Positions 25,804-47,089 of a stretch of DNA of 47,089 nt are shown one piece after another. A program made the translations under genes and the position numbers. How positions within the stretch are numbered: the stretch's first letter is position 1; each line of letters begins with the position of its first letter. The notes under the pieces are model-generated. The model worked only from the letters and a program-made list of their open reading frames with translations. It was not told the DNA's origin and did not search any database. Origin of the DNA: Leucosporidium creatinivorum (lineage: Eukaryota > Basidiomycota > Microbotryomycetes > Leucosporidiales > Leucosporidiaceae); NCBI GenBank assembly GCA_001600635.1, contig BCKL01000006.1, positions 1,014,752-1,061,840 on the forward strand. The letters run 5' to 3'.

Positions 25804-25913
25804 CCCGAGTCGAGTTGAGCAGACGAGGTGAAGCGTAAGAGGGCAAGCTCGGAGCGAGCGATTTCGTCCCTCTTCCTTCTTCCTCTCGCTCGTTTCTCGA
25901 CTCGACTACAGGA
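25804..25913. promoter_or_regulatory. Shared 110-bp promoter of the two MYND genes
   Basis: Only 110 bp separate the two start codons, so the promoters must overlap. A CTACAG at 25906-25911, within TCGACTACAG, stands two bases before the plus-strand ATG. No counterpart faces the minus-strand gene. Confidence 0.65.
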
Positions 25914-26861
25914 ATGGAAGCTACTGCTAGGGAGTGCGCTGTGTGTCCTGCTACAACCAATCTCAAGGCCTGTTCTAGGTGCAAGGAAGCCTACTACTGC
26001 TCTACAGACCACGCCAAGCTGGTGAGTCTGAGCTGGGCCCTTTGTTCGCCCCGAGGAGAAGCTCCTCTCTCCCCACTTCGCGCTTCGCTGACCGCTCGTC
26101 TATACTTGACTACAGCTCTGGCATATTCACAAGCGCTTCTGTGGAACGGGAGTCGAGGTGTGGTACGAAGAGGACTTGAGCGAAGCCGAGCTCAGGAAGC
26201 TGGTGCCGAGCGGCGAAGATTTGGCGACGAGTGAGCTTTCGCTGGTGAGCTGCAGCCTCCGAAGCTGACCTTCCAAGGTACAGAATTGTGCTCTGGCGGT
26301 ATGAGCCTCAACGAGCGGTTCAGAAAGCTCCGACACGTCCTGCCTTTCCTTCAGCCGAGGTGAGGACCAATTTGAAACGCCCCTCGCTTGCGCCGAGAAG
26401 GAGAAAGAGCTGACCACTTGCTCCAACAGACTTTCTGGCCTTCCACCTGCCTTGACGAGTGGCAAGGCTCGCCCGCCAATCGTTCTTACGCCATCGCGGC
26501 AGCACGAACTGTTTTCGCCAGCACCAGGACTTCCGCCGACGAAACGCCGCTGGAGATGTTCGAAGTCATGCTTTCGCGCACACAAGTCAGACTCTATCAC
26601 GCCGAGCTTCCAACGAGCCCGGGGCAAACCCGCTGGCGCAACAAGTACATGCGTCAGGCGACGATTGCTTTCTGGCTGCTCGGCGAAGGCAGAGGTAGCG
26701 ACAATCGAGGCTTCCTCTTCGTTCCGCTCGCCTTCAAACGCTGGCTGAGACTGCTGGACTCGAGCTTGGAGTGGGAAGAGGTGACGAGTGCGCTGAGGAC
26801 TTGGGTCACGGACGCCGGCGACACCTTGGACGGTCAGGTCTTTCAGATTCAGTTTGGGTAG
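25914..26861 (+). CDS. MYND zinc-finger protein (copy 2 of a head-to-head pair)
   Basis: The product starts MEATARECAVCPATTNLKAC and contains a complete MYND finger: CxxC, CSRC, the YYC/H element, and WHIHKRFC after the first intron, which has a GTGAGT donor and a TTGACTACAG acceptor. The C-terminal half in the most protein-like frame contains DETPLEMFEVMLSRTQVRLY and RQATIAFWLLGEG and ends FQIQFG at 26861. The exon joining finger and C-terminal half (about 26160-26360) is uncertain. A splice at the expected site near 26275 gives one frame, while the downstream exon needs another. An acceptor near 26322, or a further small intron, would fit. The paralogue on the other strand differs completely after the finger. 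Function unknown beyond likely protein binding. Confidence 0.75.
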
Positions 26862-27206: not shown

Positions 27207-28152
27207 CTACAGCGCCAGCACCGCCGCCAACAGCGCTCCCAGCAGCCCTCCAACCGAAGTGCCGAAGCTCGAGGCCGCCGAGGCAGGTGTTGACGAAGGG
27301 GCGACCGAGGCTGAGGCTGCTGTTGGGGCCGAAGGGGCCGAGGATGATTGAGATGTGGTGGAGGATGAAGATGTGGTGGTTGATAAAGATGTGGTGCTCG
27401 TGCTGGTTGTCGAAGAGGACGTGCTCTCCACGACCGAAGTGGTCGGCGATGGCTCAGCTGAGGTCGATGTCGAGGGGACGGTCTCCGATGTAGTGGTGGA
27501 GGGAGACTCGGAGGCGGCGGAGGCAGCTGATCTGGACATCTCGGCTACGATTTGAGAGGAGATGGAGGAAGGGCTGCCTGCAAGGTAGTCGTAGTCGGTC
27601 GAGGTCGAGGGGGCGCCGTTATTGGCCGACCTGGACGGGCAGAGGACTGCGTGTGAGGTCGAGAGTGATCAGTAAGCGTCTCGACACCATGCTAGCTCCA
27701 AGCCGAGGGCTCACCTCGCCTGATACTCTGGATCGTCGGCGCTGTCGCCGGATCCTGCTCGACACACTTGACGCAGGGTTCCAGCTTGGCCCAAAACGAG
27801 TCCGAGCAAGCACAATCTTCCTCCTTGCTCTTCACTGAACCAGTGTAGCAGGCCTGTGTAGAGTATCGGCGAGTCAGCTCGGTTCGGCGATTCCGGCGAC
27901 GACGGAGGAGGGAGCTGAGCTCACATTCTGCTGGTCGAGGAAAGGCTGGCATGTAGGAACACAGCTGTTGGGGAAAGCTTGACCCGAAATGATGGTGTAG
28001 TCACCTTGATACTCCGTCGTCTGTGCTCGTACAGAGGCGGCAGCGGCGACTGTTTGGAGAGGAAAGAAGGGGGGTCAACAAGCGGATCCCGTGAGGGTGC
28101 AGATTGAGAAGAGCTGACCCAGGAGAGCAGGAAGAGCAGAAGAGAGGTGCAT
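27207..28152 (-). CDS. Secreted cysteine-rich, serine-rich GPI-anchored protein (CFEM-like)
   Basis: The start MHLSSALPALLG (28150-28152) plus the next exon VAAAASVRAQ make a short signal peptide with an Ala-x-Ala-like end. A cysteine-rich domain follows with the pattern CVPTC ... AC ... DCAC ... CVKC, then one more Cys in VLCPS. This resembles CFEM or related fungal cysteine-rich wall modules, but the spacing does not fully match CFEM. The C-terminal half is a Ser/Thr-rich stalk, likely O-glycosylated, and ends in a hydrophobic GPI-attachment tail (SVGGLLGALLAAVLAL). Three introns are used. It probably sits in the plasma membrane or wall. The first part of this gene is duplicated, inverted, at 46747-47089. 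Possible roles such as haem binding or adhesion are not shown by the sequence. Confidence 0.82.
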
Positions 28153-28504
28153 GATGAGTCGCTGTCGACGAGGAAGCAGAGAAAGAGCGAGAAAGGCGAA
28201 GGGCAAGGAGGAAGAGCACCGCTCGCTGGACCCGGCGCTTCGGGAGAAGTGATCGAGCTGGGGCCGAGGAATGTCGGGATGTATGCTGTAGGGCAGTAGG
28301 AGTCACCACGAGCATCCATTGCAGATTTGCATCTTGCTCCTCGGTATGCCAGCCCAGCGAGAAGCTGAGCGCCGAAGCTGGTTCTCTCCCGCCGAACTTC
28401 CTTCGCCGAGCTGCTTGAGGTCGCATTTTTGCAGAGCGGTTCGAGGGAGGAGTGAATCAATGTACAACGCCAAACGAGTCTTCCCGTTCCTACTGCTGAT
28501 TCCC
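28153..28504 (-). promoter_or_regulatory. Upstream region of the GPI-anchored protein gene
   Basis: 352 bp between the LRR gene stop and the GPI-protein start. It has one CTACAG in the sense direction (28283-28288). It is part of the duplicated arm and contains one of the two bases that differ between the arms (28264). No coding feature. Confidence 0.5.
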
Positions 28505-30796
28505 CTAGCTCCCACCCTTCATGGTGCTCAGCCGCTGAGGCCTCCTCCTCAACCATCTCATCACCCGCTCTCCCTCCTCGAATTGCTCTGTCTCGCCCCC
28601 AGCCCCCACCAAATACTCACCCTTCACCCTCCTCTCCTCCTCGCACCCTACACACGCGCACTCCTTCCCGAGCCGCTCCCGATCTTCCCCCGCCGAGCCC
28701 TCTCCCTCCTCGCCGAGCAATCCCAAATGCCCCACCGCGCACCTTGTACAGAACCGGTGATGCCTCACGTCGCCAACTACGAGCGTAGTGAGCTCAGTAC
28801 CTCGACCGTAGAGTGCAAGGAGCACTCGCTCCTCGGTCGTTAGATGGTGAGGCTGGGGGCGAGAGGGCGAGGAGGATTGCGATGAGGGTGGAGGGCGGAT
28901 CTGGGTGGGTAGGTTGACGCCGGGTGAGAGGAAATGGATGCGTTCGTAGAGAGGTGGGAGGTGGAGGGAGATGGGGTTGAGAACCGGGCTCGGCGCGGCT
29001 GAGAGTGGGGAGGAAGAGCATGGAAAGGCGAAGGTGGGGAGAGGCGAGATGAAGCTGTGGCAGGAGGCGCAGGTGTAGGACTTGGTAAGCGCCTGATGAA
29101 GATGCGGAGGAAGGTCGTCGGAGAGGGTGCTGGCCGCCTGTGATGGTGGCGAAGAAGAGGACATGGGCTCCTTGGCGATCGTCGATTTCGGCGCTGAAGC
29201 GGCTGCGAGCAGTTCCTCATTCTCCTCCTCCGCTCGTAGCTCCGCCTGAATGACCTGCAAAGTGATCTCCACCAACGTCGGCGCCTCCCTTCCCTCACCC
29301 TTCCCTCCTTGTCGCTGCTCGGCTCCACCTACTCCCTCCAACACTCTTCCCTCGCTCCACCTCGCCATCCTCGCCCGCACCACCTGCGCCACCTCTCTCG
29401 TATTCCCTCTCACTGGTCCCTTCTGCTCCACCCCAGCAGCTTCCAGCCACGCCTGCTCGCTCTGCAGCCCTCGCACTCGTGGCAGCTTCGTTCTCCCTGA
29501 ACGAGCGAGCTGATTCCCGTTGAGCTTCAGTCGCCGGAGGTGCGAGAATTGGGCGATGGAAGGTGATAGGAGGCGGAAGGAGTTCTGAGAGAGGGAGAGC
29601 GTTTCGAGGCCGGGGAGGAGGAGCGGGAGGGTCGGAGGAAGGGCTGCGAGGAGTCGGAGGTCAACAAAAGTGCAACGAGCGAGCGCCGAGGTGGCTACGA
29701 CGCCAGCGCGAAGCAGCGACGGGAGAAGACACCTCACTCACTCGTGAGCCGATTCCTGGAGAGGTCGAGGGAGCGAACCGAGAGGAGGATCGACCGTGCT
29801 GTCGCTCGCTCTTCGGCGAAGCCTTCGAACGAGAGGTACCACTCCAGGACCTCCTCTGCACGGTGCAGGACTTCGAGCCGAGCGAAGTCGCTGAAGGTGA
29901 GGTTGAGGTTGGTGAGAGCAAGACGTGGAAGGGACGAAGGAAGAAGGAGCGATTCGAGGGAGGTGAGGAAGGAGGTCGTAGCGGTTCGGAGTGCGAGAGG
30001 TGGGTGGAAGAAGGCGGGCGGAGGGTTCTGCAGGGAGGTGAGGTGAGCGAGCGTGTCGGTAGACAGGCAGTGAGCTACGCACGGCGGCGACCAGCTCTCG
30101 AACAGCGCCGACCCATTCCAGCTCTCCCCCATCTTTTGCTTTCCCCTTGCCCTTCTCGTCGCCCAGACCCAGCCATCGCTGCCTTAGTCCCACCAACGCC
30201 CTCGCCTCCTCCTTCTTCAATCCCCGTCTCCACTCTTTCGACCCTTTCTCCTCCTCGCCGAGCATAACCTCCAAGTCCCGGCTCAATCGCTCGAGGATGG
30301 GGATGAAGACGCCCAGGCTGGCCAACTCGGTAATAGAGGTAGGTAGCGACGTCGACAGCGATTTGAGGGATGTTGCGAGCGAGTCGAAGGACGGCGAAGG
30401 CGACGAGAGGGCCTGCCGAACTCGGAGAAGGGCGAGGGACAGCTTGAGATGCGAGTGGGCTGGTCCTGATGAAGCTGAAAGGGTGGACCGTGCGCTCGGT
30501 GCTTGGCCTGCTCCCTGTATCCTTCTCATCAGCCCGCTAGTCCGCTCCAATCCCCCACCGCCCAAGCTGCCATCGGAATCTGTGCTCTCTTCGTCTGAAT
30601 CGGATGTGTCGTCGTCTTCATCATCCTCCGAAGTAGAGAAAGAGCCTGTTGATGGGTACGAGGAAGAAGCTGTACCGCTGCTGCTGCTGGACGAGCTGGA
30701 ACGGCGCCGGCGGAGACGAGGAGGAGCGCGATGAGTGCGGCGAGGCGGGAAGAAAGCCGAAGGAGCGNAAGAGGATGTGATGGGCGTCGAGGTCAT
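28505..30796 (-). CDS. Leucine-rich-repeat protein with cysteine-rich C-terminus, copy A
   Basis: The product (about 710 residues) starts MTSTPITSS and has an early serine/acidic low-complexity region. A helical part follows, then leucine-rich repeats such as LALTNLNLTFSDFARLEVL, VRSLDLSRNRLTTLP, LETLSLSQNSFRLL and LRRLKLNGNQL. The C-terminal 200 residues contain paired cysteines (TCASCHSF; HRFCTRCAVGH; CACVGCEEE) that could bind zinc. Two introns are needed, the first about 56 bp with a GTGCGT donor after ELVAA, the second just after NRLT. One base is undetermined (N at 30768, in the eleventh codon). The start is supported by CTACAG three bases upstream and by the identical second copy. I do not recognise a named homologue; an adaptor role in signalling or ubiquitination would be a guess. 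Confidence 0.83.
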
Positions 30797-30971
30797 CCGC
30801 TGTAGGCCATTGGGCGCTTCACAGGAAGCTGTAGCGGATTTGAGCAAGCGAACAGCGGCGATTCGGCGGGAGGGCAACCTTGACCGTCTCGCAGCCAGCG
30901 AAACAGCTCAGCTTCCCGCCCTCATTCGCTTCCCCGAGTCTCGACTCTCGTACAGCAAGATCAACCAGCAA
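30797..30971. promoter_or_regulatory. Divergent promoter of LRR gene and DUF2433-like gene, copy A
   Basis: 175 bp between the two start codons. On the LRR strand CTACAG occurs at 30800-30805 (three bases before the ATG) and 30829-30834. The plus-strand gene has only a GTACAG near 30951. An identical copy lies at 43928-44102. Confidence 0.6.
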
Positions 30972-33900
30972 ATGGCTAGCACAGCTCCTCCTTCCAGTTC
31001 GGCTGCTGCTGCAGCTGCACCTCAGTCGACTACACCTCTCGCTCAACCTGTCGACTCGCATTCGAACCGCGTCGATGTCATCAATTCGGCCGGGGGAAGG
31101 ATCCTCTGCGTCAGCGATATTAGGGGTGAGTTCTTGCAGTGAATCAGCGGTCTGCTACAGCTTCAAAGTGGTCCGAACGAGGGCCAACTCGGCAGGAAAC
31201 GAGAGGGAACCGTGCTCTGTGGGAAAGCAGGCGATTGAGGCGGGCTAGAAGGCTACAGAGAGTCGGCAGGGGTAGCTGGTGCTCTGGGGGAGTGCTGGCT
31301 GCTCTTTCTCGAGGCTCTCGACCGGCTACAGCCAGCTTCGGGCCGCTCCAGCTGGGAGGTTCGACCGCCTGCAGGCTGTAGAGCTGGAGCAGCCGGCGAG
31401 ACGAGGCTTTGCGGTCAGGCGGTGGGAGTGTATTATTGCGTCCTGAGCGCTGCCCCCTCATTCTTCTGGTAGCTCGCTGAGGAAGCAGCGCCGCATCGCG
31501 CTGGACGACGACGACGCGCTGTGTGGTCGACTTTCAAGCATCGTAGAGCGCGTCGAAGCAGCGAGGGACAGCCAGGGGGAGGGTAGAGTGCGCCGTACAT
31601 CTCCACTGAGCTGTCTTGTTGCCTCTGTCTGCGAGGGCTCCCCCTTTGCACGCGACTCACTCCCAGGTCTTTCGCTCGGCTCGGACAGGACTCGCCGTAT
31701 CAATGTGGCATAGCGCTGTACCAGAGGACTATTGCTGACCAGCTGTACACTCCCTCCTCCTCTGACCACCCGCAGGAGCCATCTCGACTCTCAACACGCT
31801 CGCCGCCGAGCACAATGCTGTCGCTATCATCCACAGCGGCGACTTTGGGTTCTACGGTCCGTCGCCTTTTGTCACATCATCATTTGCGCTCTCCTGCTGA
31901 CGCTGTACACCAACAGAGCCCTCCTCGCTCGCCTCCATCTCGGACCGCACCCTCCGTCATCTCGTCCAGTACTCCTCCCTAATCACCCCCCAATTCCGCT
32001 CGCAACTTCTCGCACCGAACGTCTCTCCTCTGCAACTTCGCGAACTCCTCGCTCGTGGACCCAACCCCAAGGCGCCCGCCTCGGACGACTTCTTCGGCCT
32101 CTCCGAGTTCCCCAAACTCCTCTCGGGCGACCTTGTCCTCAACGTCCCCGTCTACACCGTCTGGGGAGCATGCGAGGACGTCGCCATCCTCGAGAAGATC
32201 CGATTGGCAGCTCCCTCCCTCCTCAACGTCCCTTCCGACCCATCCGTCGTTCCCCCTCCTCCCGCACCGCCAGCCAACGGCACTCGAACCACTTCGGGCT
32301 ACTCGATTCCCAACCTCACGGTGCTGGACGAAGCGACGACGAGGGTTCTGGTCATTGGAGGAGTTCGGTTGAGGCTGTTTGGATTGGGAGGAGCGGTCGT
32401 CAGCCACAAGTTGTTCGACAACGGAACGGGAACAGCGACCATCGCTGGAGGTGGAGGAACGATGTGGACGACGGTTCTGCAGATTGGAGAGCTCGTTGAT
32501 ACCGCACAGAAGGTGAGTTCGGTGCTCGCCGCTGCTTTTGGCCTTCTCCCACGCTCGCTCGGCGAGAGGGAGGGCTCAGAGGAAGCTCAACACGAAGTAC
32601 AACGCTAACGTCTCCGCTTCCAGGTCTACGATCCCACGGAGACCCGCCTGCTGCTCACCCACGCCTCGCCCGGGCGCGAGGGCCTTCTCTCGCAACTCTG
32701 CCTCGTCCTCAAAGCCGACCTCACCCTATCCGCCGGCCTGCACTTCCGCTACGGAGTCAGCTACAACGAGTTCTCGGTGCAGCATGATCCCGAGGCGTTC
32801 AGGGGCAAGCTGGAGGCGGCGAGGAAGGGATTCAACGAGGTTTGGGAGACGGTCAAGGGACAGGTCGAGGGTGTCGTCGAGTGAGCTTCGATCTTTGTCA
32901 TCCGAGCCTCATGCGGAGCTGACCTTCTCTCCCGCCAACAGCGCCAACCAAAAGGCTCTCCTCGAGAACGCTCTCGCCGTGGCCAACCGAGTACCGGCTG
33001 CGCCCGCTGCCGGGGGCCAGGCAATTGAGGAGAGTGCGTGGAAGAACTGCTGGAACTGGTGAGTCGCTCTCCCTTCGATCTGAACGGAGTGTCGTGCTGA
33101 CCCTTCTCGCCCTGCGCAGGAACCTGCCTGACGCCGCTTTCGGTAGCCTCGTCCTCGACGTGCGCGACGGAAGGGTCGGTAGCGAGATGAAGAGTCAAGG
33201 TGGGTCCTGCTGCTGCGCTTTCACCAGTCGCAATCGCTCACCCTTCGTGTCTCGTGTTCGAAAGGCTTCAACTTTGCCTACCGCGCCAACAACGCTCGGC
33301 CGACCCCTCCTCCCGCTGCTCCTGCCGCTGCGCCTTCCACCACAACCTCGGCTTCTCGCTCCACCGCTCCCAACACCAACGGCCCCATCACCATCGCCGC
33401 CCCCGTCCCTATCAAGCCCGTTGCGCCTTCCCTCCCTTCGCAACAGCCCCAAGTCCCTCAACAGCAGCCTCAAGCTCCCTCCTCGCGTTTCCCCGGCGCC
33501 AACGGACCTCCCGCTGGACCTGGTGGATTCCGTGGCCCTGGGTCTCGTGGAGCAGGACAGCAAAACCCTCACTTGAGGCAGCCTTCGGGACCTCCTCCTC
33601 ACCACGGCCAGGCGCCGACGGGACCGAGGGGACACGCTCAGGGAGGCAGGTTCAGCGGTGGATGGGGAAGCGGAGGGAGCGCCAGTGGAGGCGAGGGAGG
33701 CAAGGGAGGCAACAAGAGGAATGCAGGCTCGCCGAGGGCTGGCTCGCCTGCCCCAGCCTCCTCTCCCGCCGCCGAGAAGAAGGATGAGAACAAGAAGCCC
33801 GCCGCTCCTCTCGCCGCTTCGCTCGCTGCTTCCCTCCCTCTTCCTGGTTCGGACAACGAAGGCGCAGCGCCGACCGTCAAGGCCGACGCCAAGGACGCTC

Positions 33901-34331
33901 AGACCAACTCTTCCGCCTCTGCCATCGCAGCCGACAACGCTACCACCGCTCCTACCACCAACTCTCGTCCTCCTTCGACTCGCGGACCTCGTCAGCCGAG
34001 GAACAACACCAAGGACTCGGTGGCGACGTCTGGCACCGAGGCCGCTGCTGCTGGGGAGAGCTCGGGAGGCGAGGCTCTCGCGTCGCCTGTCTCTGGCGCG
34101 CCTTCGCCGTTCGGCGGAAGGGGTCGTGGACGGGGACGTGGAGGTCGCGGAAGGGGAGGAGAGTTTGCGGGAGCGTCGAGGGGGCCGAGGGGAAGGGGAG
34201 GCAAGGGCGCTGAGGGCGCTGCTGCTGGAGGAGAAGGTGGGGAGGGAGCTGCCTCGAAGGCCGAGGGGGGGGCGACTACTCCTGGAGGCGGAGAGAGTAG
34301 GAAGGCCGGCGCGAACGGAGGTGGTTGGTGA
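30972..34331 (+). CDS. DUF2433-like protein: metallophosphatase-type N-terminus and RGG-rich C-terminus
   Basis: The spliced product is about 780 residues. Exon 1 (30972-31125) encodes a disordered start and then RILCVSDIRG. Across a 650-bp intron (31126-31775) it continues AISTLNTLAAEHNAVAIIHSGDFGFY, the Dx(H/R)G...GD core of a calcineurin-like phosphatase fold. Further on come TVWGACED, LLLTHASPGREGLL and GLHFRYGVSYNEF. The C-terminal 350 residues are rich in Gly, Pro, Gln and Arg with RGG/RGRG clusters, typical of RNA-binding tails. The arrangement fits the fungal DUF2433 family, whose biochemical role is not established. The first metal-site position is Arg rather than His (DIRG), which may reduce or remove catalysis. 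Exon 1 and part of intron 1 are duplicated at 43467-43927. Confidence 0.8.
31126..31775 (+). other. Unusually long first intron of the DUF2433-like gene
   Basis: The intron is 650 bp, while other introns here are mostly 50-220 bp. Donor GTGAGT and a CTGAC branch site before CCGCAG at the end are canonical. It contains several CTACAG/CTGTAG hexamers. Its first 307 bp belong to the inverted arm. The remainder resembles 43150-43466 (reverse complement) in a diverged way, including GACGACGCGCTG and GCATCGTRGAGCG. Confidence 0.75.
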
Positions 34332-34731
34332 TAGAGATAATCCGTAGCTTTCCCTCCTACCAGCATTCCCCTCCTATCGTTCTACACTCGCAAAAGAGCT
34401 TTCCCTTTCTAATCAGTCCATGCCGCTCGGGGTTTCCGAAAGCTGAGAGCGGGCGCCGAGCAAAGTGAGACGGCTTAGATGAGACTCAGGCGAGCTCCGC
34501 TCCTACAGAAGTATATATAGCGAAGCTCTGTCAGCTTGAACGACATCTTAAAGCGACTTAGATTGGCTGAGCTCGAAGGTCGGCGATGCGCAGCGAGTCT
34601 CTCTTCCGCTCGCGCTGTATCCTCTCAACCTTGCCTACAGGTCGCGCGTAATCCTAACAATTCCTTGAATCTTTACAAACCGCCCTACAGCACTACATTC
34701 CACCTCTGCCCCGCCAAGCCACCTCGGCGCT
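34332..34731 (+). other. Convergent intergenic region with promoter-like signals
   Basis: 400 bp lie between two stop codons (DUF2433-like plus, peptidase minus), so no promoter is expected. Yet it has TATATATA at 34512-34519 and plus-strand CTACAG at 34503, 34635 and 34685. No tRNA or known snRNA signature and no convincing frame is seen. A non-coding or antisense transcript is possible. Confidence 0.4.
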
Positions 34732-36796
34732 TCACCTCCTCGCCGTGAGCTTCTCAATCTGCGCCACCGTCTTTGGAAGACTGGCGGGAGTAAGGTTCTC
34801 GTAGCCCTCGGCAGTCACGAGAAGATTATCCTCGATGCGCACACCTCCGACATACATGTATTCCTCGACTTTGACGTGGTCGATGAATGGCGAGCTCTTC
34901 CAGGGCTTGAGAAGGTGGCTACTGAAATATGCGCCAGGCTCGCTCGTTAAAACGAAGCCAGCCTCCAAGGGCACCCTCAGCCTAAGGTAGCGAAGGAGTG
35001 GATCGGTCGATTTGCCTTCAGGGAGTCCTCCGACGTCGTGGCTGAGGCGGGGGAACGAGAAAAGGTCAGCCAAAATGTACGGCATTCGTGTAGGGAAATA
35101 AAGGAGTGAGGAAGGAGGAGTGGAATGTAGGATACGAAGACGTGAGGTAGAGATGGTGAGGAGAAGTGGGACGGAGGGGCACGGGGGAGCCGAAAGAGGC
35201 GCGCCGAAGAAGGTCGGCGGGAGGCAAGAAAACTTACACATCGAGGCCGAGAAGGTGACCTGAAAAGGTGCGCAAGAGAAGTCAGCATCGGATGCACTCT
35301 ATCATCCTGCAGCAGACTCACCAACGCCGTGAGGGAAGAAAGCGGTGGTCGCTCCCGACTTGAGGATGGCAGCGACGACCTCGTCCTCGGAGCCCTTTAC
35401 GTCGCCGGGGATCATGATACCGAGCTTGAGCAGTCCGCGAGCGAGCACGTCGTGCCTATGGAGCGGAAGGGCAGCAAGTCAGCGCCGCCGCAAGGTCGAG
35501 ACAGCGCGAACAACGCCGGTAGTGCTCACATCTTCCTATCAATCGGGGCGAGAGCGGTCAGCGTGCTGCGCAAAGTAATTTCGAATCTCTGTAGTAACAA
35601 CTCACCTCTGAATGGCCTCCCAATCAGCTCCGGGCTTGACCATCTTGAAGCTCTCCTCCTGCATCAGCAGCACGAGCTCGTAGATCTCCTTGCACTCCTT
35701 GGTGAAGCGGCCGTCGTTTCCGATAGGGATGCAGCGAGTGACATCGGCAGCATAGTTTTGATACTCAGCTCCAGCGTCGACGAGGAGGAGCGAGCCGGGC
35801 GCGGTGGTGGGGAAGGGGCGGTCATTGGCGACGTAGTGGAGGGTGCCGGCCGAGGTTCCCGAGGCCATGATGGGCGTGTAAGCTTGGTGCTTGGATCTAA
35901 GGGCGAGATGAGTTAGTGAGAATCGAGCGAAAGCTTCAGACGAACGCTGAGATCTGAGCGAGTCTTCAACGTCTTCACCGTCTTCAACGCGAACTCACCC
36001 ACGCTTGCGGCATACGCTCAGGAAGACAGCTTCCGCAGCATTCTCATCATTCACACTGCCATAGCCGACAGCAGCCATGAGCGCGGTGTGCGCCTCGCCC
36101 GTGATCGCCGAAGCCTTGCGCATGACGTTGAGCTCGTACTCGGTCTTGTTGCGCCTCGTCTCATGGAGAGCCTTGATGAGGTACTGAGTAGTCGAGGTGG
36201 GACCGTTGATGGAGGAGACGACGGCGGTGGGAGCGCGCGTCCAGGGGAGAGTGTGGATGAAGGTGCGAAGGCCCTCGTTCTGAGGCTTGGGAGGGTACAG
36301 GGAGACGGAGGTCCAGCCAGTGGTGATCTCGGAGAAACTGAGGGACTTGCTGAGCTCGTCGGCGGTAGGAGGGAGACCACACCACCTGCGGAAGGCGAAG
36401 CGCGAGGACGGGCGAAGACGAGCATGCGGACGAGCGATAGATCAGCGAAAGGTCGACAGGATGCCTAGCAGAAGCAGAGGATAAAAGAAGAGCTCACATA
36501 ACCTCGGCAGGGTCGACCTCGGGCAAGTGAAGCTTCGTCTGCAGCTTCTCGGGCTTGAAGGCGCCTCCCTCATGCTCGTAGCCCAGCGTGAAGGCCGCGC
36601 CGGGAACCTCGCAGCCCGTCAAATATGCGAAGTTGCTTTCCTGCCTGAAAGTCCGTTCGACGTCGGTATCGTTGCGCGAGGAGACCTTCTCTCCGTGAAG
36701 TACGATCCAGTGGAAAGCAGGACCCGTCGAGGGCTTGAGCTGCAACAGGCGCTGGACGAGCAAGTGAGCGTGGTTGAGAGGGAAGGAGGCCGCCAT
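34732..36796 (-). CDS. pepP: Xaa-Pro aminopeptidase/prolidase (M24B metallopeptidase)
   Basis: The enzyme cleaves bonds next to proline in peptides. The start MAASFPLNHAHLLVQRL opens the AMP_N domain, with ESNFAYLTGCEVPGAAF. The catalytic pita-bread domain carries all five metal ligands: Asp in LLVDAGAEYQNY, Asp in AADVTRC, His in FFPHGVGHLLGLDVHD, Glu in LTSEPGAYF and Glu in RIEDNLLVT. Six or so introns are present, with very small exons around KM and HLLGLDV. Length is about 490 residues, matching fungal cytosolic prolidase-like proteins, and there is no signal peptide. CTACAG lies nine bases before the ATG. A decayed copy of its exon 1 and leader is found about 2.6 kb away at 39345-39545. 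Confidence 0.94.
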
Positions 36797-37232
36797 ATCG
36801 AGCTTCTGTAGCAGAGCGGTCGACTTGAGAGCAGCGAGGAAAGTTGGAGGAGGAAACGAAGCGCCGCGTGGATTGCAGCGGGTTGCCTTGCACCAACACC
36901 TTGCTGCACATGACCACCAAACACCGAGGGAGCGTCGGTTCGGGAATTCGAGCTCTGCATGCTCGGCTACAGCTGCTGCTCGGCCTTCAACTCTCGACAA
37001 GGCTCTCGCTCGGCGCCTCCTCTCCCCTCGACCTGTTCTCGCAATGCCTGAATCAGCGTTTCTTTTGGAGTCACGGAGGTGGAACTGCACCTCAGAAATT
37101 CTCGGCGTGTGCTGCACTGGATTAGGTGGACTCCTTTCCCGTTCCATTGACCCCTCCTCGGAGCTGCAGCTCGTCGGCGTCGAGTCCTTTTCCTTCTTTG
37201 TCTCTTGACGGCTCGTTCATTCGACTACAGCC
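36797..37232. promoter_or_regulatory. Divergent promoter between peptidase and unknown gene
   Basis: 436 bp. CTACAG in the sense direction for the peptidase is at 36806-36811. For the plus-strand gene it occurs at 36967-36972 (CGGCTACAG) and 37225-37230 (TCGACTACAG), the last ending two bases before the ATG. No GTGAGT donor is obvious in this stretch, so these are not clearly leader-intron acceptors. Confidence 0.55.
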
Positions 37233-38970
37233 ATGCGGAAGCCGTTTAAGGCGTTCAAACTCCCCGAGAAGCTTCGGCGTCTGAGCGACGCAAAAGAGGC
37301 CTCAGGAAAGCAGGGCTACTCACGACACGCCTCGGCAGTTTCGGCCGCTTCGAGCTCGGCTCAAGTTTCCTCTCGACGAGGTTCCACCACGTCTCTTGAT
37401 TTCGAAGATCCGCCGCATCGCAGGAGCACGGAGTACGAACTTGGATTTGGCGTTCTTCCTCGTACGTCTTCGACGCCCTCACCATTTCCCCACGCTGACA
37501 CTTCGCCGAGCACAGCGGTATGGGAGCCTGTCAGGCCGAGTGAGTCGTGAAGGTGCTCCGGAGGGTACAGAATAGCTCATCGATTCTACTCGCAGAAACT
37601 GTCCCCTACGAGGCCGCCATGCGCCATCATCAAGAACTGGTCGACGGCTTTATCGCTCAAGTACGTCTTCGGCTGCTGCTCGGTGCTCCGCCTGTGCTGA
37701 CCCGTTTGATACTCTACAGGCATACCGTCAAGCACCAACTGCTCTCCCCCGCAACGAGGTTTGGGCGACGAGGGCCCATCAAGGTAAGTTTTGAACCTCG
37801 ACTCACTTCCCCGAACCTCGCCTTCTCATGCTCTGTCTCCTGCAGTGACGTCTATGATGGGCTACTCAGGCGGCGGAAAGAACGCTAAGCGCCTCGACAT
37901 CGATATCAAGGGCCCCGCCATCTTTGCCTCTGGTTCAGGATGCTGGGTGCCGGGCGGAAAGAGCATGTCGGACTCGGGCGAGGATTGCCGCGGTGCTCGC
38001 TTGTACGCTGCTGCTCCCGGTTTGGAGCACCACGGAGATCTTGAGGTCAAAACCCCCAATACCAGGTGAGTTGGTAGACCTGCGAGTGTCACCTCAAAGG
38101 CGGGACACTGACTTCGCGCCGACGCCGAGCAGGTCGATCTGGCACTATCGTCGGATGGTCGGCCGCCCTAGCGTCGAGGAGTACGCAGACGGCGCCGATC
38201 CGAGTACACGGAAGGAGGAGCACTTCGATCACTGCACCGTGTCCGTGTGGGAGTGCAAGGAGCTCGGACGACCTGGATCTGCGCCGGCGGCCGTCTCGGT
38301 CCTCTTCATCCTTCACGACGCCAAAACGAGGAAGCTGTGGCGTGAGCATTACATCAAGAAGGAAGGTCTACCGCTCTATCATCCTCCCCCTTCCTCCGGC
38401 GTGACTGCCATGCACGTCGCGCTCGTCAAGTCGGTCCTCACCTTCGTCGACGCCGACCACATCCCTCCTCGCGACTGGGAGCTTCACTGGCACCCAAAGG
38501 AGAAGTACCTCATCTGCAGGGGAGCCGACGTGCAACAGCAGTCGTGGATCCGCGACACTTATACCGTCTTCTACGGCTTGCCCGAGGCGAGGTACGAGAA
38601 CCCCCCTACCGAGGCATTTAAGAAGGCGGAGCGCGACTACCAGGCAGGACTCGAGCCGGCTGCGCTCAAGCGGCGCCAGGATTTGGTGGCTGAGAAGGAG
38701 CGAGAGATGCGCGGGGAACTGCTGGTTCGCTGGGGTGATGGTGAGCCTGCTCTCTCGCCTGCGCCGAGCTCGCCGAACCTAAACTTCTTCTCGCCGGCAG
38801 GCGGGCGCGATCACGAAGCCGTCTTTGCCCTCAAGCACGACTCGGAGCTTAAGGAGTGCGACCTCAAGAGCGACCTCGTCGTCCGTACGGTCTGGACGGT
38901 CTCATGCAGTCGCAACATCCCTCGAAGCATCATGCCCTCCGAGATTGAGTTCGTCAACAGGGAGACGTAG
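37233..38970 (+). CDS. Uncharacterised protein, about 500 residues
   Basis: The product starts MRKPFKAFKLPEKLRRLSDA, a basic N-terminus followed by a serine-rich stretch to about residue 100. Four introns split the first half, with two exons of only about 22 codons (ETVPYEAAMRHHQELVDGF and AYRQAPTALPRNEVW). The long last exon encodes SIWHYRRMVGRPSVEEYADG, a mixed alpha/beta region with HFDHCTVSVWEC and WHPKEKYLICRG, a charged helix near KRRQDLVAEKEREM, and the end SEIEFVNRET. No known motif, signal peptide or membrane helix was recognised. The reading frame is well supported by consistent splice sites and continuous protein-like sequence. Function unknown. Confidence 0.75.
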
Positions 38971-39344
38971 CCTGGGAAGTGAGGTGGACGGAGGAGCACA
39001 ACGCAGCTATATATATATCAGTATTTCTTCTGCGTCTGAGGGCTTTGTAGTCTCGCAATCGAGCGAGAAGTGTGCCGCGAGAGACGTTCGGCGTTGGCTT
39101 GAGGCTCACCGGGCGACGCACCGCTCTGTGGCGGCGTTGTATTCTGCCAGCGAGGTTCCAGCTTCACTCTAACAGCTTTTACTAACTCGTTGATGACCAC
39201 TTGTAGCTGTCAGCTGTGCAAGCGCATCTCGACGAGCCGGTTTCCTCTCGGCGACTTCGGAAGGAGCTCGGCGCTGGCGGAAATCCGCCTCGAGGCTCGT
39301 TGAAGGCGAAGAAGGGAGAGCGGGCGGCGGTAGGGAATGATTGG
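38971..39344. other. Intergenic region with short TA repeat
   Basis: 374 bp downstream of the unknown gene. A short (TA)n tract lies near 39007-39018. No gene is recognised. Confidence 0.4.
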
Positions 39345-39545
39345 GACTCGCAAGTACGCTCGACCTCGGTATCATCGCACGATGAGATCCTCTCTCTCCA
39401 TAAAGTACAATCCAATGGAAAGCGGGACCAGGTGAGGGGTTGAGTTTCAGCAGGCGCTTGAAGGGCAAGTGAGGTGGTTGAGAGAGGGAAGGAGGCTTCC
39501 ACTATCAGCTTCTGTAGCCTGCTCGAGCTGTCGACTTCGGCTTTA
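39345..39545 (-). pseudogene. Decayed partial copy of the Xaa-Pro peptidase exon 1 and leader
   Basis: The segment resembles 36650-36830 in the same orientation. Shared pieces include GACCTCGGTATCATCG / GACGTCGGTATCGTTG, the stretch around CCAATGGAAAGCGGGACC, GGTTGAGAGAGGGAAGGAGGC and the leader piece CAGCTTCTGTAG. In the minus-strand frames it still gives GPAFHWIVLYGE and DDTEVERT, like the parent's GPAFHWIVLHGE and NDTDVERT. The conserved pieces now lie in different frames and the ATG context is lost, so it cannot code for the peptidase start. Only about 200 bp are recognisable. Confidence 0.8.
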
Positions 39546-39935
39546 GGTGCTCGACGATCTTGAGAGTCAGACTTCGGCGCTAGCGCCCGCCGTCTTTCTC
39601 GAACGTGCTGGAGGTGGAACGACCGCTGCTCTTCGATGGACATCTGGAGCTTTCTAAACGGTAGCTTTGAAGTGCGCTGAGGCCGAATAGAGCTGCTCGA
39701 GCGGCGCGAACCATCCTAAACGCTACAGCTCAGGCTGCCAGGCGCCCAACGTGCGCTCGACGGCTATCGCCGAGGTAGGTCGACCGCGCTGTTCTGTGAG
39801 ACAGCGAATTGCGTAATGGTAAGCTCGTGTAGATCAAATGGCTCTCATTGGTTGATTCAAAGTGAGGAGCGATGGGAAGCGAGAGAGCCCCACTTCTTCC
39901 TCTCTCTCCTTCCTTCCTCTCGTCTCTCCATCAAG
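39546..39935 (+). promoter_or_regulatory. Upstream region of the PhoD gene
   Basis: 390 bp directly before the PhoD start codon, with one sense CTACAG (39723-39728) and a pyrimidine-rich stretch just before the ATG (39890-39930). No coding feature. Confidence 0.5.
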
Positions 39936-42825
39936 ATGCTGGCTTCGTTGAGCCTCGCCGGGCTCGCTTTAACCGTGTCTACCGTTTCTGCCCTTCCTCG
40001 CGCTGGACCTTCCGCCCTCGCCTCCAACCATGTCTATCGCTCTCCTTCGAAGCAAATCCACGACCTCGCCATCGACACTTCCGAGGTCTACTCTGGACTG
40101 GGAAAGCGTTGGACCGATACATACTCGGGGAACTTGACCTTTCCGTACGGTGTAGCCTCGGGCGATAGGTGAGTCGACTCGCGGAGCGGAGCTCGTGTTG
40201 AAACGTTTCGCTGACCGACATCTTCTGCAGCTACTCGGACTCGGTCATCCTCTGGACTATGCCTCGCAAGCTTGATCTTGGAGGACTCTACGGCGGCAAC
40301 GCTTGGCCTCCCATCTGTCTCCAATGGTGCGCGATGATAGCTGAAGCGCCGAGAAGCTCGCTGACCGATTGGCCTTCAGGGTCGTCTCCTCCAACGACAC
40401 CGACTTTACCGAGACTTCGAGGGTACAAAATGGCTTCGTGCAGACTACGTCAGTTCATTTTGATAGAGTCTATCGCCGCCTCGCTGACCCAGAGTCGCTC
40501 GGCTTCCCTGCAGTGAGGACGTGCGCTACGCTGTCAAGGTTGAGGCCACCGGCCTGAAGCCCTACACCAAGTACTACTACCGCTTCGAGTCGTGCGAAGG
40601 CGCCGACCTCGGAGTCTCGCCCGTCGGCATCTTCAAGACCCTCCCCGCCGAGGAGGACGAGATCGCCAAACTCCGCCTCGCCATCTTCTCCTGCTCTAAC
40701 CTTCCCTTCGGCATGTTTAACGCATACGGCAATGCGGCCAATCACTCGGAGACGTTGGACTTTGTGCAGCATCTCGGCGGTGAGTGCTTTTCTCGCCTCG
40801 GCGATCGTTCCCTTGCCCCAACTCTTTCGCTTTCTGCCTATTCTATCGGCCTCAAGTAACTCAAACCGATCGACTCGTTCCCAGACTACATCTACGAGTA
40901 CAAAAACGGCGACTACGGAGATGGTACAGCTCTCGGTCGAATCCCTCAGCCCGACCGAGAGATTTCATCGCTCCAGGATTATCGCGAGTGAGTCCTCGTC
41001 GGCGCCGAGCATGGGGAGACGTGGAGCTGACGTCTTCTCCTCTGCAGCCGCTACGCCTCCTACAGGGTCGATCCTGATCTGCAAGAGCTGCATCGTACTC
41101 TCGCTTGGATGGCGGTCTGGGACGACCACGAGGTCGCCGACAATTCCTGGAAGTATGGCTCGGCCGACTCCAATAACACCCTACAGGGAAAGGTGGGAGA
41201 TTACGAGTTTTCAGAACGCAAAGCCAATGCAGTTCGCGCCTACTACGAATGGTGAGTAGATCTGACTGCCGTCTGACACCGAGCGCCGGAAGTCGCGCTG
41301 GAGGGACCAAACGGCTGTAGATGAGACACCGATGCTCACGCCTCCCCATTGCCTTCCGCAGGATGCCGATTCGCCAGGTCGACACCGACGACAAGCTCCG
41401 CATCTGGCGATCTTTCAAGCTCGGAAAGCTCGGCTCGTTCGTCTTTCCTTCGCTAACAGCTCACCGGCTCCTCATCAGCTCACCTTATTGCTCTTCACCC
41501 TTTCTCAAGTATGATCATGCTCGACACCCGTCAATACGACCGCTCAAAGACAGATCTGTACTACAACACGGATGAGATTATCGCCGTCTCCGGCGATTCG
41601 GACCGCTCTCTGACGGGATGGAAGCAGCAGCAATGGCTTTACGAGCAGCTTCAGGAGCACAAGGATAGGGACGCCACTTGGCCCTTGATCATGCAGCAGA
41701 TCGTCTTCAGCCGTGTCAAGTGAGCTGCTCGGCGATCTTGTCTCGCTCGGCTCTCGCTAACTTTACTCGTTCACAGCTATTCGATCGCTACTGGAGGAGC
41801 TACCGAGTTCAACGTCGACGCGTGGGAGGGCTGTGAGTGTCTGACTTTCTCCAACCTTCGCTCGGCGACTGAGCTCTGACCTCGGCGCTATCCTCAACAG
41901 ACCGCTACGAGCGCGAGAAGATCCTCGAGTTCATCGAGGGCAAGGAGATTGAAAACGTGTACGCTTCTGGTAGCCCTTCCTGTGTGGTGTCGATGCTGAC
42001 AGTCTCGCTCTCTCGCCTCACTTCCAGGGTCGTGCTTTCGGGAGATTCTCACGCTACTTGGGTGTAAGACGACTTGTCTTGCTGTCCGAAGTCGAGGAGC
42101 TGACGTCCTGCATCCTCTCCAGCTCGGACCTCAAGCGCGAGAACGGAACCTACGACCCTGTAACAGGAAAGGGAGCGCTCGGCGTTGAGTTCGCTGGTTC
42201 GGCAGTCTCGAGTCCTTCCTCCTACGGTCACGGCCCTAGTGCGCTTTTTCCTGGTCTTTGTGAAGACTTGAGCTGACTCATGCCTCATCAGAGTACACCG
42301 AGGAAGTCTGTACGTCTGATCGCGCGTTCCCTCGACGGCTTTGCGCGGGAGCTGACGCTTTCCTCTCATCTCTCCCACCGCTTCCACGTCTTCGACATCT
42401 TCATCCTCCCTTGTCCCCTCTGTTCCTCCTCCACTCCATCGCAATCTGCAGACAAGGGAATCGCTGCCAACCTCACCGCCGCCTCGCCTTCGCTGCAGTA
42501 CGCTGAGGGGCAGCTTCGCGGATACTTCGAGCTCACGTACGTTCTCACGCCTTTCCCTGCGGCACTGTGAGAGGGCGTAAGCTCACCCTCGCTCCCACCT
42601 CCCCTCGTCACCGCCTTTCTCGGCGATCTCTCACCCTCGCCCGACAGCCTGACGCCCTCCAACATCACCGCCGACTTCTACGGCTTCGCCAAGCAAGACA
42701 CTCGCAACTCCAACGTTACGCACATGGGCTCCTTCAGCGCTCAGAAGGGAGCAAACAAGCTCTCGCGCCCCCTCAACGGAGGCCAGGCGCCGATTTACGG
42801 CTCGCTCGGAGCTGGAAAGGCTTAG
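39936..42825 (+). CDS. phoD: PhoD-type alkaline phosphatase, secreted
   Basis: PhoD enzymes hydrolyse phosphomono- and diesters outside the cell, usually with calcium and iron at the site. The start MLASLSLAGLALTVSTVSALP is a clear signal peptide. The N-terminal PhoD domain reads LTFPYGVASGD and the Fn3-like part contains YTKYYYRFESC. The metallophosphatase core shows LAIFSCSN, the signature MAVWDDHEVADN, MIMLDTRQYDRS and VVLSGDSHATW. The end is YGSLGAGKA, followed by the stop at 42823-42825. It is split by about a dozen introns, many under 80 bp, and all exons rejoin in frame with CTGAC branch sites. Several NxT/S sites (for example GNLT) suggest glycosylation. Phosphate control is likely for the family but no Pho site was identified. 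Confidence 0.93.
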
Positions 42826-43466
42826 AGGATGTTCCCGACAAGCGCAAAGCAGTAGAAATGACTCGGAAAGCCCGCTTGACGCTTATAGTACTGTGACTGC
42901 ATTTGTATTCGCGTCAAAAGTCAACTCAAGCGCTCGGCGTCGCATCGCAGAGCCTCTTGAACAGCCGAGACGCTCGCTGCTTCCTGCTATCAATTGGTCG
43001 ACAAGGGATTTGTACAGGCAAGTGCATGTTCGAGATACGCTTCTACATCAATCGAGACGACTCTGAGCTCCGAAGCTCTCAACGCTCCCTCCCGCTCGCC
43101 CTGCCTCCCTCTCCTCACCGCTGCCCCACAGTCCGTCGCTCGGTCTACAGCTCCAAGCTGAGTGCGTCATACAGATCACCTCGCCTGATTTTGCCAGCAC
43201 GTGAATAGTCCTGGGCTCGGCGGAGAATCCTCCTGCGAGTCGCAGCGAACGCCGAGCCATCGCCGAGGGAGCTCTGCAGGGTCCACTGTAGCGCACACTC
43301 CAGCTTTATTCCCCTCGTCTCCTCGAGTCCGGTGCTCCAGCACGCTCCACGATGCCCGAGGCGCGACTGCCAGCGCGTCGTCCGAGTCCTCTGGGCCGAC
43401 TCGGCCCTGCCTCGTCGGTGAGCAGCGGAAGCAACGAGGGTCTCAGCCGCTAGGAAGTGAGAGTAC
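42826..43466. other. Spacer between PhoD and the right inverted arm; diverged relative of the long intron
   Basis: 641 bp without a supported gene. The part 43150-43466, read as reverse complement, shows scattered similarity to 31433-31760 beyond the inner end of the left arm: GACGACGCGCTG, GCATCGTGGAGCG versus GCATCGTAGAGCG, GAGTGTGCGC versus GAGTGCGC, and CAGGACT, in the same order and with similar spacing. I estimate this by eye only. Confidence 0.5.
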
Positions 43467-43773
43467 TACACTCCCACCGCCTGACCGCAAAGCCTCGTCT
43501 CGCCGGCTGCTCCAGCTCTACAGCCTGCAGGCGGTCGAACCTCCCAGCTGGAGCGGCCCGAAGCTGGCTGTAGCCGGTCGAGAGCCTCGAGAAAGAGCAG
43601 CCAGCACTCCCCCAGAGCACCAGCTACCCCTGCCGACTCTCTGTAGCCTTCTAGCCCGCCTCAATCGCCTGCTTTCCCACAGAGCACGGTTCCCTCTCGT
43701 TTCCTGCCGAGTTGACCCTCGTTCGGACCACTTTGAAGCTGTAGCAGACCGCTGATTCACTGCAAGAACTCAC

Positions 43774-43927
43774 CCCTAATATCGCTGACGCAGAGGATCC
43801 TTCCCCCGGCCGAATTGATGACATCGACGCGGTTCGAATGCGAGTCGACAGGTTGAGCGAGAGGTGTAGTCGACTGAGGTGCAGCTGCAGCAGCAGCCGA
43901 ACTGGAAGGAGGAGCTGTGCTAGCCAT
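43774..43927 (-). pseudogene. Orphan first exon of the DUF2433-like gene
   Basis: This is an exact copy of exon 1 of the gene at 30972, with its promoter and 307 bp of the intron, pointing toward the spacer. No exon 2 (AISTLNTLAAEHN) follows within the 950 bp before the PhoD stop codon. If transcribed, it would read past DIRG into intron and stop soon at a TGA. It is best called a truncated gene copy produced by the duplication. Confidence 0.85.
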
Positions 43928-44102
43928 TTGCTGGTTGATCTTGCTGTACGAGAGTCGAGACTCGGGGAAGCGAATGAGGGCGGGAAGCTGAGCTGTTTCG
44001 CTGGCTGCGAGACGGTCAAGGTTGCCCTCCCGCCGAATCGCCGCTGTTCGCTTGCTCAAATCCGCTACAGCTTCCTGTGAAGCGCCCAATGGCCTACAGC
44101 GG
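43928..44102. promoter_or_regulatory. Divergent promoter of LRR gene and DUF2433-like exon 1, copy B
   Basis: Same as 30797-30971 in inverted orientation, with CTACAG three bases before the LRR start codon. It should drive the LRR copy and the orphan exon. Confidence 0.6.
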
Positions 44103-46394
44103 ATGACCTCGACGCCCATCACATCCTCTTACGCTCCTTCGGCTTTCTTCCCGCCTCGCCGCACTCATCGCGCTCCTCCTCGTCTCCGCCGGCGCCGTTC
44201 CAGCTCGTCCAGCAGCAGCAGCGGTACAGCTTCTTCCTCGTACCCATCAACAGGCTCTTTCTCTACTTCGGAGGATGATGAAGACGACGACACATCCGAT
44301 TCAGACGAAGAGAGCACAGATTCCGATGGCAGCTTGGGCGGTGGGGGATTGGAGCGGACTAGCGGGCTGATGAGAAGGATACAGGGAGCAGGCCAAGCAC
44401 CGAGCGCACGGTCCACCCTTTCAGCTTCATCAGGACCAGCCCACTCGCATCTCAAGCTGTCCCTCGCCCTTCTCCGAGTTCGGCAGGCCCTCTCGTCGCC
44501 TTCGCCGTCCTTCGACTCGCTCGCAACATCCCTCAAATCGCTGTCGACGTCGCTACCTACCTCTATTACCGAGTTGGCCAGCCTGGGCGTCTTCATCCCC
44601 ATCCTCGAGCGATTGAGCCGGGACTTGGAGGTTATGCTCGGCGAGGAGGAGAAAGGGTCGAAAGAGTGGAGACGGGGATTGAAGAAGGAGGAGGCGAGGG
44701 CGTTGGTGGGACTAAGGCAGCGATGGCTGGGTCTGGGCGACGAGAAGGGCAAGGGGAAAGCAAAAGATGGGGGAGAGCTGGAATGGGTCGGCGCTGTTCG
44801 AGAGCTGGTCGCCGCCGTGCGTAGCTCACTGCCTGTCTACCGACACGCTCGCTCACCTCACCTCCCTGCAGAACCCTCCGCCCGCCTTCTTCCACCCACC
44901 TCTCGCACTCCGAACCGCTACGACCTCCTTCCTCACCTCCCTCGAATCGCTCCTTCTTCCTTCGTCCCTTCCACGTCTTGCTCTCACCAACCTCAACCTC
45001 ACCTTCAGCGACTTCGCTCGGCTCGAAGTCCTGCACCGTGCAGAGGAGGTCCTGGAGTGGTACCTCTCGTTCGAAGGCTTCGCCGAAGAGCGAGCGACAG
45101 CACGGTCGATCCTCCTCTCGGTTCGCTCCCTCGACCTCTCCAGGAATCGGCTCACGAGTGAGTGAGGTGTCTTCTCCCGTCGCTGCTTCGCGCTGGCGTC
45201 GTAGCCACCTCGGCGCTCGCTCGTTGCACTTTTGTTGACCTCCGACTCCTCGCAGCCCTTCCTCCGACCCTCCCGCTCCTCCTCCCCGGCCTCGAAACGC
45301 TCTCCCTCTCTCAGAACTCCTTCCGCCTCCTATCACCTTCCATCGCCCAATTCTCGCACCTCCGGCGACTGAAGCTCAACGGGAATCAGCTCGCTCGTTC
45401 AGGGAGAACGAAGCTGCCACGAGTGCGAGGGCTGCAGAGCGAGCAGGCGTGGCTGGAAGCTGCTGGGGTGGAGCAGAAGGGACCAGTGAGAGGGAATACG
45501 AGAGAGGTGGCGCAGGTGGTGCGGGCGAGGATGGCGAGGTGGAGCGAGGGAAGAGTGTTGGAGGGAGTAGGTGGAGCCGAGCAGCGACAAGGAGGGAAGG
45601 GTGAGGGAAGGGAGGCGCCGACGTTGGTGGAGATCACTTTGCAGGTCATTCAGGCGGAGCTACGAGCGGAGGAGGAGAATGAGGAACTGCTCGCAGCCGC
45701 TTCAGCGCCGAAATCGACGATCGCCAAGGAGCCCATGTCCTCTTCTTCGCCACCATCACAGGCGGCCAGCACCCTCTCCGACGACCTTCCTCCGCATCTT
45801 CATCAGGCGCTTACCAAGTCCTACACCTGCGCCTCCTGCCACAGCTTCATCTCGCCTCTCCCCACCTTCGCCTTTCCATGCTCTTCCTCCCCACTCTCAG
45901 CCGCGCCGAGCCCGGTTCTCAACCCCATCTCCCTCCACCTCCCACCTCTCTACGAACGCATCCATTTCCTCTCACCCGGCGTCAACCTACCCACCCAGAT
46001 CCGCCCTCCACCCTCATCGCAATCCTCCTCGCCCTCTCGCCCCCAGCCTCACCATCTAACGACCGAGGAGCGAGTGCTCCTTGCACTCTACGGTCGAGGT
46101 ACTGAGCTCACTACGCTCGTAGTTGGCGACGTGAGGCATCACCGGTTCTGTACAAGGTGCGCGGTGGGGCATTTGGGATTGCTCGGCGAGGAGGGAGAGG
46201 GCTCGGCGGGGGAAGATCGGGAGCGGCTCGGGAAGGAGTGCGCGTGTGTAGGGTGCGAGGAGGAGAGGAGGGTGAAGGGTGAGTATTTGGTGGGGGCTGG
46301 GGGCGAGACAGAGCAATTCGAGGAGGGAGAGCGGGTGATGAGATGGTTGAGGAGGAGGCCTCAGCGGCTGAGCACCATGAAGGGTGGGAGCTAG
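44103..46394 (+). CDS. Leucine-rich-repeat protein with cysteine-rich C-terminus, copy B
   Basis: Complete second copy of the gene at 28505-30796, with the same two introns and the same product apart from the base that is N in copy A. Here that codon is complete and reads Tyr (SSYAPSAFF). Both copies have their whole promoter, so both could be expressed. No substitution between the copies lies in the coding sequence, which points to a very recent duplication, gene conversion or a single locus assembled twice. Confidence 0.83.
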
Positions 46395-46746
46395 GGGAAT
46401 CAGCAGTAGGAACGGGAAGACTCGTTTGGCGTTGTACATTGATTCACTCCTCCCTCGAACCGCTCTGCAAAAATGCGACCTCAAGCAGCTCGGCGAAGGA
46501 AGTTCGGCGGGAGAGAACCAGCTTCGGCGCTCAGCTTCTCGCTGGGCTGGCATACCGAGGAGCAAGATGCAAATCTGCAATGGATGCTCGTGGTGACTCC
46601 TACTGCCCTACAGCATACATCCCGACATTCCTCGCCCCCAGCTCGATCACTTCTCCCGAAGCGCCGGGTCCAGCGAGCGGTGCTCTTCCTCCTTGCCCTT
46701 CGCCTTTCTCGCTCTTTCTCTGCTTCCTCGTCGACAGCGACTCATC
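46395..46746 (+). promoter_or_regulatory. Upstream region of the GPI-anchored protein gene, copy B
   Basis: Inverted copy of 28153-28504, differing at 46635. It has the same sense CTACAG and no coding feature. Confidence 0.5.
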
Positions 46747-47089
46747 ATGCACCTCTCTTCTGCTCTTCCTGCTCTCCTGGGTCAGCTCTTCTCAATCTGC
46801 ACCCTCACGGGATCCGCTTGTTGACCCCCCTTCTTTCCTCTCCAAACAGTCGCCGCTGCCGCCTCTGTACGAGCACAGACGACGGAGTATCAAGGTGACT
46901 ACACCATCATTTCGGGTCAAGCTTTCCCCAACAGCTGTGTTCCTACATGCCAGCCTTTCCTCGACCAGCAGAATGTGAGCTCAGCTCCCTCCTCCGTCGT
47001 CGCCGGAATCGCCGAACCGAGCTGACTCGCCGATACTCTACACAGGCCTGCTACACTGGTTCAGTGAAGAGCAAGGAGGAAGATTGTGC
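46747..47089 (+). CDS. GPI-anchored cysteine-rich protein, copy B, 5' part only
   Basis: Second copy of the gene at 27207-28152, cut by the window end. The visible part covers the signal peptide exon MHLSSALPALLG, the first cysteine exon ending PFLDQQN, and the start of the next (ACYTGSVKSKEEDC). The serine-rich stalk and GPI tail, if present, would lie outside the window. The visible coding exons show no difference from copy A. Confidence 0.8.

Follow-up and report, generated by a model that had tools for sequence, protein, structure and literature searches.

Near-identical inverted arms with diverged edges

The genome of Leucosporidium creatinivorum holds a pair of inverted, gene-bearing arms that probably derive from an older duplication of at least 4.2 kb, the core of which, judging from sequence comparison, appears to have been homogenised recently and most likely by arm-to-arm gene conversion. 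The window analysed here, a stretch of 47,089 nucleotides, corresponds to C6:1014752-1061840 and is a single contig of scaffold C6, within an assembly of 27.7 Mb in 63 pieces. Pairwise comparison of positions 27810-31432 (arm A, plus strand) with the reverse complement of positions 43467-47089 (arm B, minus strand, reaching the contig end as seen from the arm comparison and the N run that follows) yields an ungapped alignment of 3,623 bp with 3 differences. This identity of 99.9% is far above chance.

The first-pass annotation had described these two intervals as reverse complements with two non-coding substitutions and one N, and all three differences were recovered: a substitution at 28264/46635, an N at 30768 (opposite 44131) and a substitution at 31184/43715. 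By-eye gene models place the substitution at 28264 between two genes and that at 31184 in an intron, in agreement with the description; the N falls in the open reading frame (ORF) of a gene for a leucine-rich repeat (LRR) protein. No full 200-bp bin of the core contains more than 1 difference, and intergenic and intron DNA is no less similar between the arms than coding DNA.

A genome search with the arm finds three places, counts that are lower bounds: arms A and B themselves and, at C6:1063696-1064149, a piece of 454 bp. The search, which strongly diverged copies could escape, gave no sign of a third, diverged copy of the core. The two long copies lie in opposite orientation on one chromosome and have different neighbours, as befits an inverted segmental duplication. 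A mobile element was rejected as an explanation, given that the arm was found in two copies plus the 454-bp piece and that its genes look ordinary (Pfam searches on chosen ORFs). We found no report of the locus of this inverted pair in the literature, though a search without the species name had little chance of finding one.

Homology continues beyond the core on both sides

The window is adjoined by runs of Ns, 4,785 bases long before it and 1,855 bases long after it, and position 47089 is the end of a contig and not the end of the repeat. The next contig opens with an unchanged direct copy of the last 454 bp of the window (46636-47089, plus strand; repeated at C6:1063696-1064149 after the 1,855 Ns, as seen by genome search and flank comparison) and continues with an inverted match to 27208-27809 that runs up to C6:1064760, the partner of position 27208. 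This outer part of arm A (27208-27809, plus strand) and its partner in the next contig (C6:1064150-1064760) differ by 27 mismatches over 602 bp and by two gaps, an identity of 95.6%. The contrast between 27/602 differences in the outer flank and 3/3,623 in the core is pronounced (Fisher p 2e-20). Divergence within the outer flank is uneven, with mismatches at 9/142 positions in 27208-27349, 3/200 in 27350-27549 (a stretch diverged by 1.5% only), 14/200 in 27550-27749 and 1/60 in 27750-27809. Past 27208 and C6:1064760 homology ends without a gradient, and anchored comparisons of 60-300 bp beyond these points are at chance level (z -0.3 to 1.6). Once the next contig is counted, arm length is at least 4,225 bp, which would make arm B at least 4.2 kb long.

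Arm A and the next contig first differ at 27809; the window ends one base short of this difference, and the next contig begins one base past the 28264/46635 difference. Such endpoints would be expected if the 454 bp between these two variant sites formed a single assembly-graph edge used by both contigs, and the 1,855 Ns probably stand for a 454-bp overlap that was never merged. The stated size of 1,855 Ns conflicts with such an overlap if the gap estimate is good; the gap may instead be real and contain more of the repeat, conceivably even part of a third copy.

Diverged homology is also present on the inner side. Positions 31441-31563 of arm A (plus strand) and 43330-43455 of arm B (minus strand) align collinearly, with 89 identical (69%), 31 mismatched and 9 gapped positions among 129 columns. 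The alignment score of 46 exceeds all of those obtained with 500 dinucleotide shuffles (mean 21.7, maximum 31, 0/500 as high). Of the arm limits first proposed, 27810-31432 and 43467-47089, the span of the core therefore stands, whereas the outer end must be moved to C6:1064760 and the inner edges are not clean breaks, given their collinear homology.

Gene content of the arms and the spacer

Three genes lie wholly or partly in the arms. Outermost is a gene for a predicted secreted, serine/threonine-rich protein with a tail resembling a GPI signal (27207-28152, minus strand), as read by eye from the translations; Pfam, run on the overlapping frame 27924-28616, gave no match. The homology of the arms stops at the stop codon of this gene, and its arm-B copy is divided between the end of the window and the next contig. 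The LRR-protein gene (28505-30877, minus strand) comprises two adjoining ORFs that we take to be one gene: the ORF at 28505-29737 has a weak LRR_8 match (E 8.7e-05, under the curated cut-off), and that at 29738-30877 has no Pfam match. The same gene is found in arm B at 44022-46394 on the plus strand.

The third gene (30972-34331, plus strand; exons assigned by eye and the 3' end guessed) encodes a DUF2433 protein, with an E-value of 3.4e-13 on four joined exons and no Pfam match for the individual exon pieces. Its exon 1 (30972-31125) is in arm A and its later exons are in the spacer, such that the intron at 31126-31775 contains the inner edge of the core. Arm B carries only an orphan exon 1 (43774-43927, minus strand), the mirror of 30972-31125, and later DUF2433 exons were not found beside it. 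The DUF2433 gene is thus intact across the inner edge of arm A, which supports the join at this edge and marks arm A as the likely source.

The spacer holds further genes. An aminopeptidase P / M24 metallopeptidase (34732-37147, minus strand), taken as one gene, matches AMP_N (E 1.5e-11) and Peptidase_M24 (E 2.2e-05). An ORF of 348 amino acids follows at 37924-38970 (plus strand), without a Pfam match over the tested part, 38002-38967. A gene for a PhoD-like phosphatase (39936-42825, plus strand, exons assigned by eye) matches PhoD with an E-value of 4e-36 on joined pieces and 0.001 on a single ORF, and ends about 0.6 kb from the core of arm B. The spacer also includes a partial direct copy of the start of the aminopeptidase P / M24 gene (36649-36812 and 39352-39518, 80-82% alike), and the second copy is probably a decayed fragment.

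A probable older duplication with a homogenised core

These observations are most simply explained by an older inverted duplication, the middle of which later became homogenised. Arm A would be the original site, and a reversed copy of at least 4.2 kb would have been laid down as arm B on the same chromosome arm, beside the PhoD-like gene and with exon 1 of the DUF2433 gene only, leaving 12 kb of other genes between the two. The direction from A to B is likely, as judged from this one gene. The duplication does not appear to be very recent, because the homologous stretches that border the core have diverged. One arm may subsequently have been repaired from the other, which would have erased the differences within the 3.6-kb core by ectopic gene conversion between inverted repeats. 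Evidence for conversion comes from the step in divergence, which is also seen in neighbouring inverted pairs (see below). The homologous flanks are more diverged than the core, as in an inverted repeat homogenised by gene conversion, and since the non-coding core is as similar as the coding core, constraint does not explain the step. In this history the end of the contig at 47089 would reflect the failure of a short-read assembler to cross the repeat.

The process is an ordinary one for such repeats, and no new kind of mechanism is needed. Palindrome arms are described as being kept alike by gene conversion in the parts of a review that we consulted (PMC3403216). The palindromes of the Y chromosome (PMC3403216) and the X chromosome (PMC8981503), as presented there, likewise have inverted gene-bearing arms that are far more alike than their edges. 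Unlike these, the pair described here has 4-kb arms and a spacer about three times the length of an arm, conversion is deduced only from sequence, and nothing points to a sex or mating-type locus. A mating-type pheromone-receptor locus was considered and rejected: the only STE3 matches are at C25:435951-436551, on another scaffold, with none at the locus itself. For fungi, the consulted sections of a review on structural variation (PMC8150848) name recombination between repeats and origin-dependent amplification of inverted repeats. Inverted copies that arise in yeast from errors of replication or repair (PMC8150848; PMC4689423; PMC10622511, each consulted in part) offer a plausible origin for an inverted copy near its source, although the triplication of the yeast amplification is not seen here.

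It is also conceivable, though unlikely, that a duplication of about 3.6 kb occurred very recently, as had been offered in the first-pass annotation, and that the diverged flanks reflect a separate, older paralogy. The 99.9% identity of the core and its abrupt edges would suit such an event. A new copy, however, would be identical up to its break and flanked by unrelated DNA beyond it, whereas both flanks are collinear with the core and in the right orientation (95.6% over 602 bp and 69% over 129 columns). With 27/602 bp differing in the outer flank and 31% of columns in the inner one, against 3/3,623 in the core, the data do not favour a very recent duplication. In a draft genome, two arms can be nearly identical without being the product of a recent duplication; it is the flanks that show the age.

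Further inverted pairs and the distribution of single Ns

Self-comparison of C6:1000001-1242253 (242,253 bp, 0.9% of the genome), a stretch whose end carries a short TTAGGG run, gives 45 matches at E 1e-10 or better. Seven of these span at least 700 columns. One is direct (two near-tandem copies, 84% identical over 798 columns), and six are inverted: arms A and B and their outer part, pair 2 and its outer stretch, pair 3 and pair 4. Besides arms A and B there are thus three further inverted pairs longer than 1 kb in these 242 kb. Pair 2 (C6:1088880-1092106 and 1113982-1117216, 96%) carries a gene with a VWA domain (VWA_3, E 8.1e-08), and its outer stretch is at 85%; pair 3 (C6:1161361-1163101 and 1171344-1173078, 93%) and pair 4 (C6:1118104-1119208 and 1160671-1161781, 88%) overlap in part. 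Divergence profiles of pairs 2 and 3 each show a near-identical block; in pair 2 it is bordered on both sides by homologous stretches diverged by 5-30%, and in pair 3 by a stretch of this kind on the inner side and by an abrupt outer edge.

We suggest only tentatively that the last ~290 kb of this chromosome arm might form an ampliconic region of inverted gene duplicates, with cores repeatedly homogenised, spacers possibly flipping by crossing-over and a repeat family of its own. If the cluster of inverted pairs is real, conversion between inverted repeats and spacer flipping could be studied here in a compact fungal example.

The same 242,253 bp contain five runs of Ns (4785, 1855, 100, 2 and 2) and 52 single Ns. 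All 52 lie within pairs 1-3 (pair 1 being arms A and B) and a repeat shared by scaffolds C6 and C24, intervals that amount to 21,003 of 235,457 non-N bases and that were picked after the Ns had been seen. Both arms carry an N at 10 of the 11 N columns of pair 2 and at all 11 of pair 3, including a run of two, and 50 of the 52 single Ns have a partner N. Arms A and B carry one N, in arm A only. This pattern suggests that reads of two copies were pooled, with true differences leaving N marks. Ambiguous bases can arise where reads from several instances of a collapsed repeat mix, according to the part of the Pilon description that we consulted (PMC4237348). Similarly, the single Ns here are all in two-copy repeats; unlike the collapsed repeats of that description, both copies are present in the assembly. 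Mirrored Ns imply that repeat copies share reads, such that the identity of the core may be overstated and its exact value is uncertain; arm identity in assemblies of this kind can come partly from shared reads. With a single N in arms A and B, and that in arm A only, we read their near-identity as mostly real. The suspicion that one set of reads served for both arms is borne out in part by the mirrored Ns in the other repeats of the scaffold.

Taken further, this suspicion would have the core of arm B filled with arm A sequence, through shared reads or a fold-back, with the true arm B absent or more diverged. We consider this improbable. Consistent with it are the confinement of all 52 single Ns of the 242 kb to two-copy repeats, 50 with an N at the partner site, the run of arm B to a contig end at a gap, and the fact that one of the three differences between the arms is an N. 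Against it, the arms have different neighbours on both their inner and outer sides, where a fold-back would place the same neighbour on both. Moreover, sequence specific to arm B is joined to sequence identical to the core in two contigs: in the window on the PhoD side, and in the next contig on the outer side, where 454 bp match the core at 100%. A simple assembly fold-back, one of the possibilities raised initially, is therefore unsupported. Differences also survive in the C6/C24 repeat (37 mismatches and 12 shared Ns, compared with 3 differences in arms A and B), and the genome search did not find the diverged third copy that an overwritten arm B might have left in the assembly.

Two alleles, a caution raised in the first-pass annotation, would account for near-identity with few differences if those of a heterozygous diploid or dikaryon had been placed together on a single contig, but this is highly improbable: the two arms share a contig, the 12 kb separating them have no second copy except the fragment inside the spacer, their flanks are non-homologous past a few hundred bases, the remaining 214 kb of the 242-kb stretch have no single N (52/52 being in two-copy repeats), and one STE3 locus was found, on another scaffold. 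Two haplotypes joined head to head were likewise rejected, with the ORFs of the two inner sides being unrelated (best E 0.058).

Several other repeats were observed on the scaffold. The repeat common to C6 and C24 is 3.8 kb long and ~99% alike (C6:1231779-1235597, near the telomere at 6.7 kb from the scaffold end, and C24:167293-171079); 12 of its sites are N in both copies and 2 in C24 only, and 30 of its 37 mismatches are inside 1234279-1234778. Positions 1-132 of the window have an inverted counterpart at C6:1009716-1009838, identical except for one 9-bp gap, and the two flank the 4,785-N gap; the translation presumably resembles elongation factor 2, and the only Pfam match was a weak one to SRI (E 0.015). 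A dispersed repeat family is represented in the window at 25681-26177 and by 13 other matches, 70-85% similar to the window copy and some of them short fragments, which were found only on C6, between 957 and 1208 kb. One copy, at C6:1162646-1163138, overlaps an ORF for which Pfam gives a weak zf-MYND hit (E 0.0089, under the cut-off).
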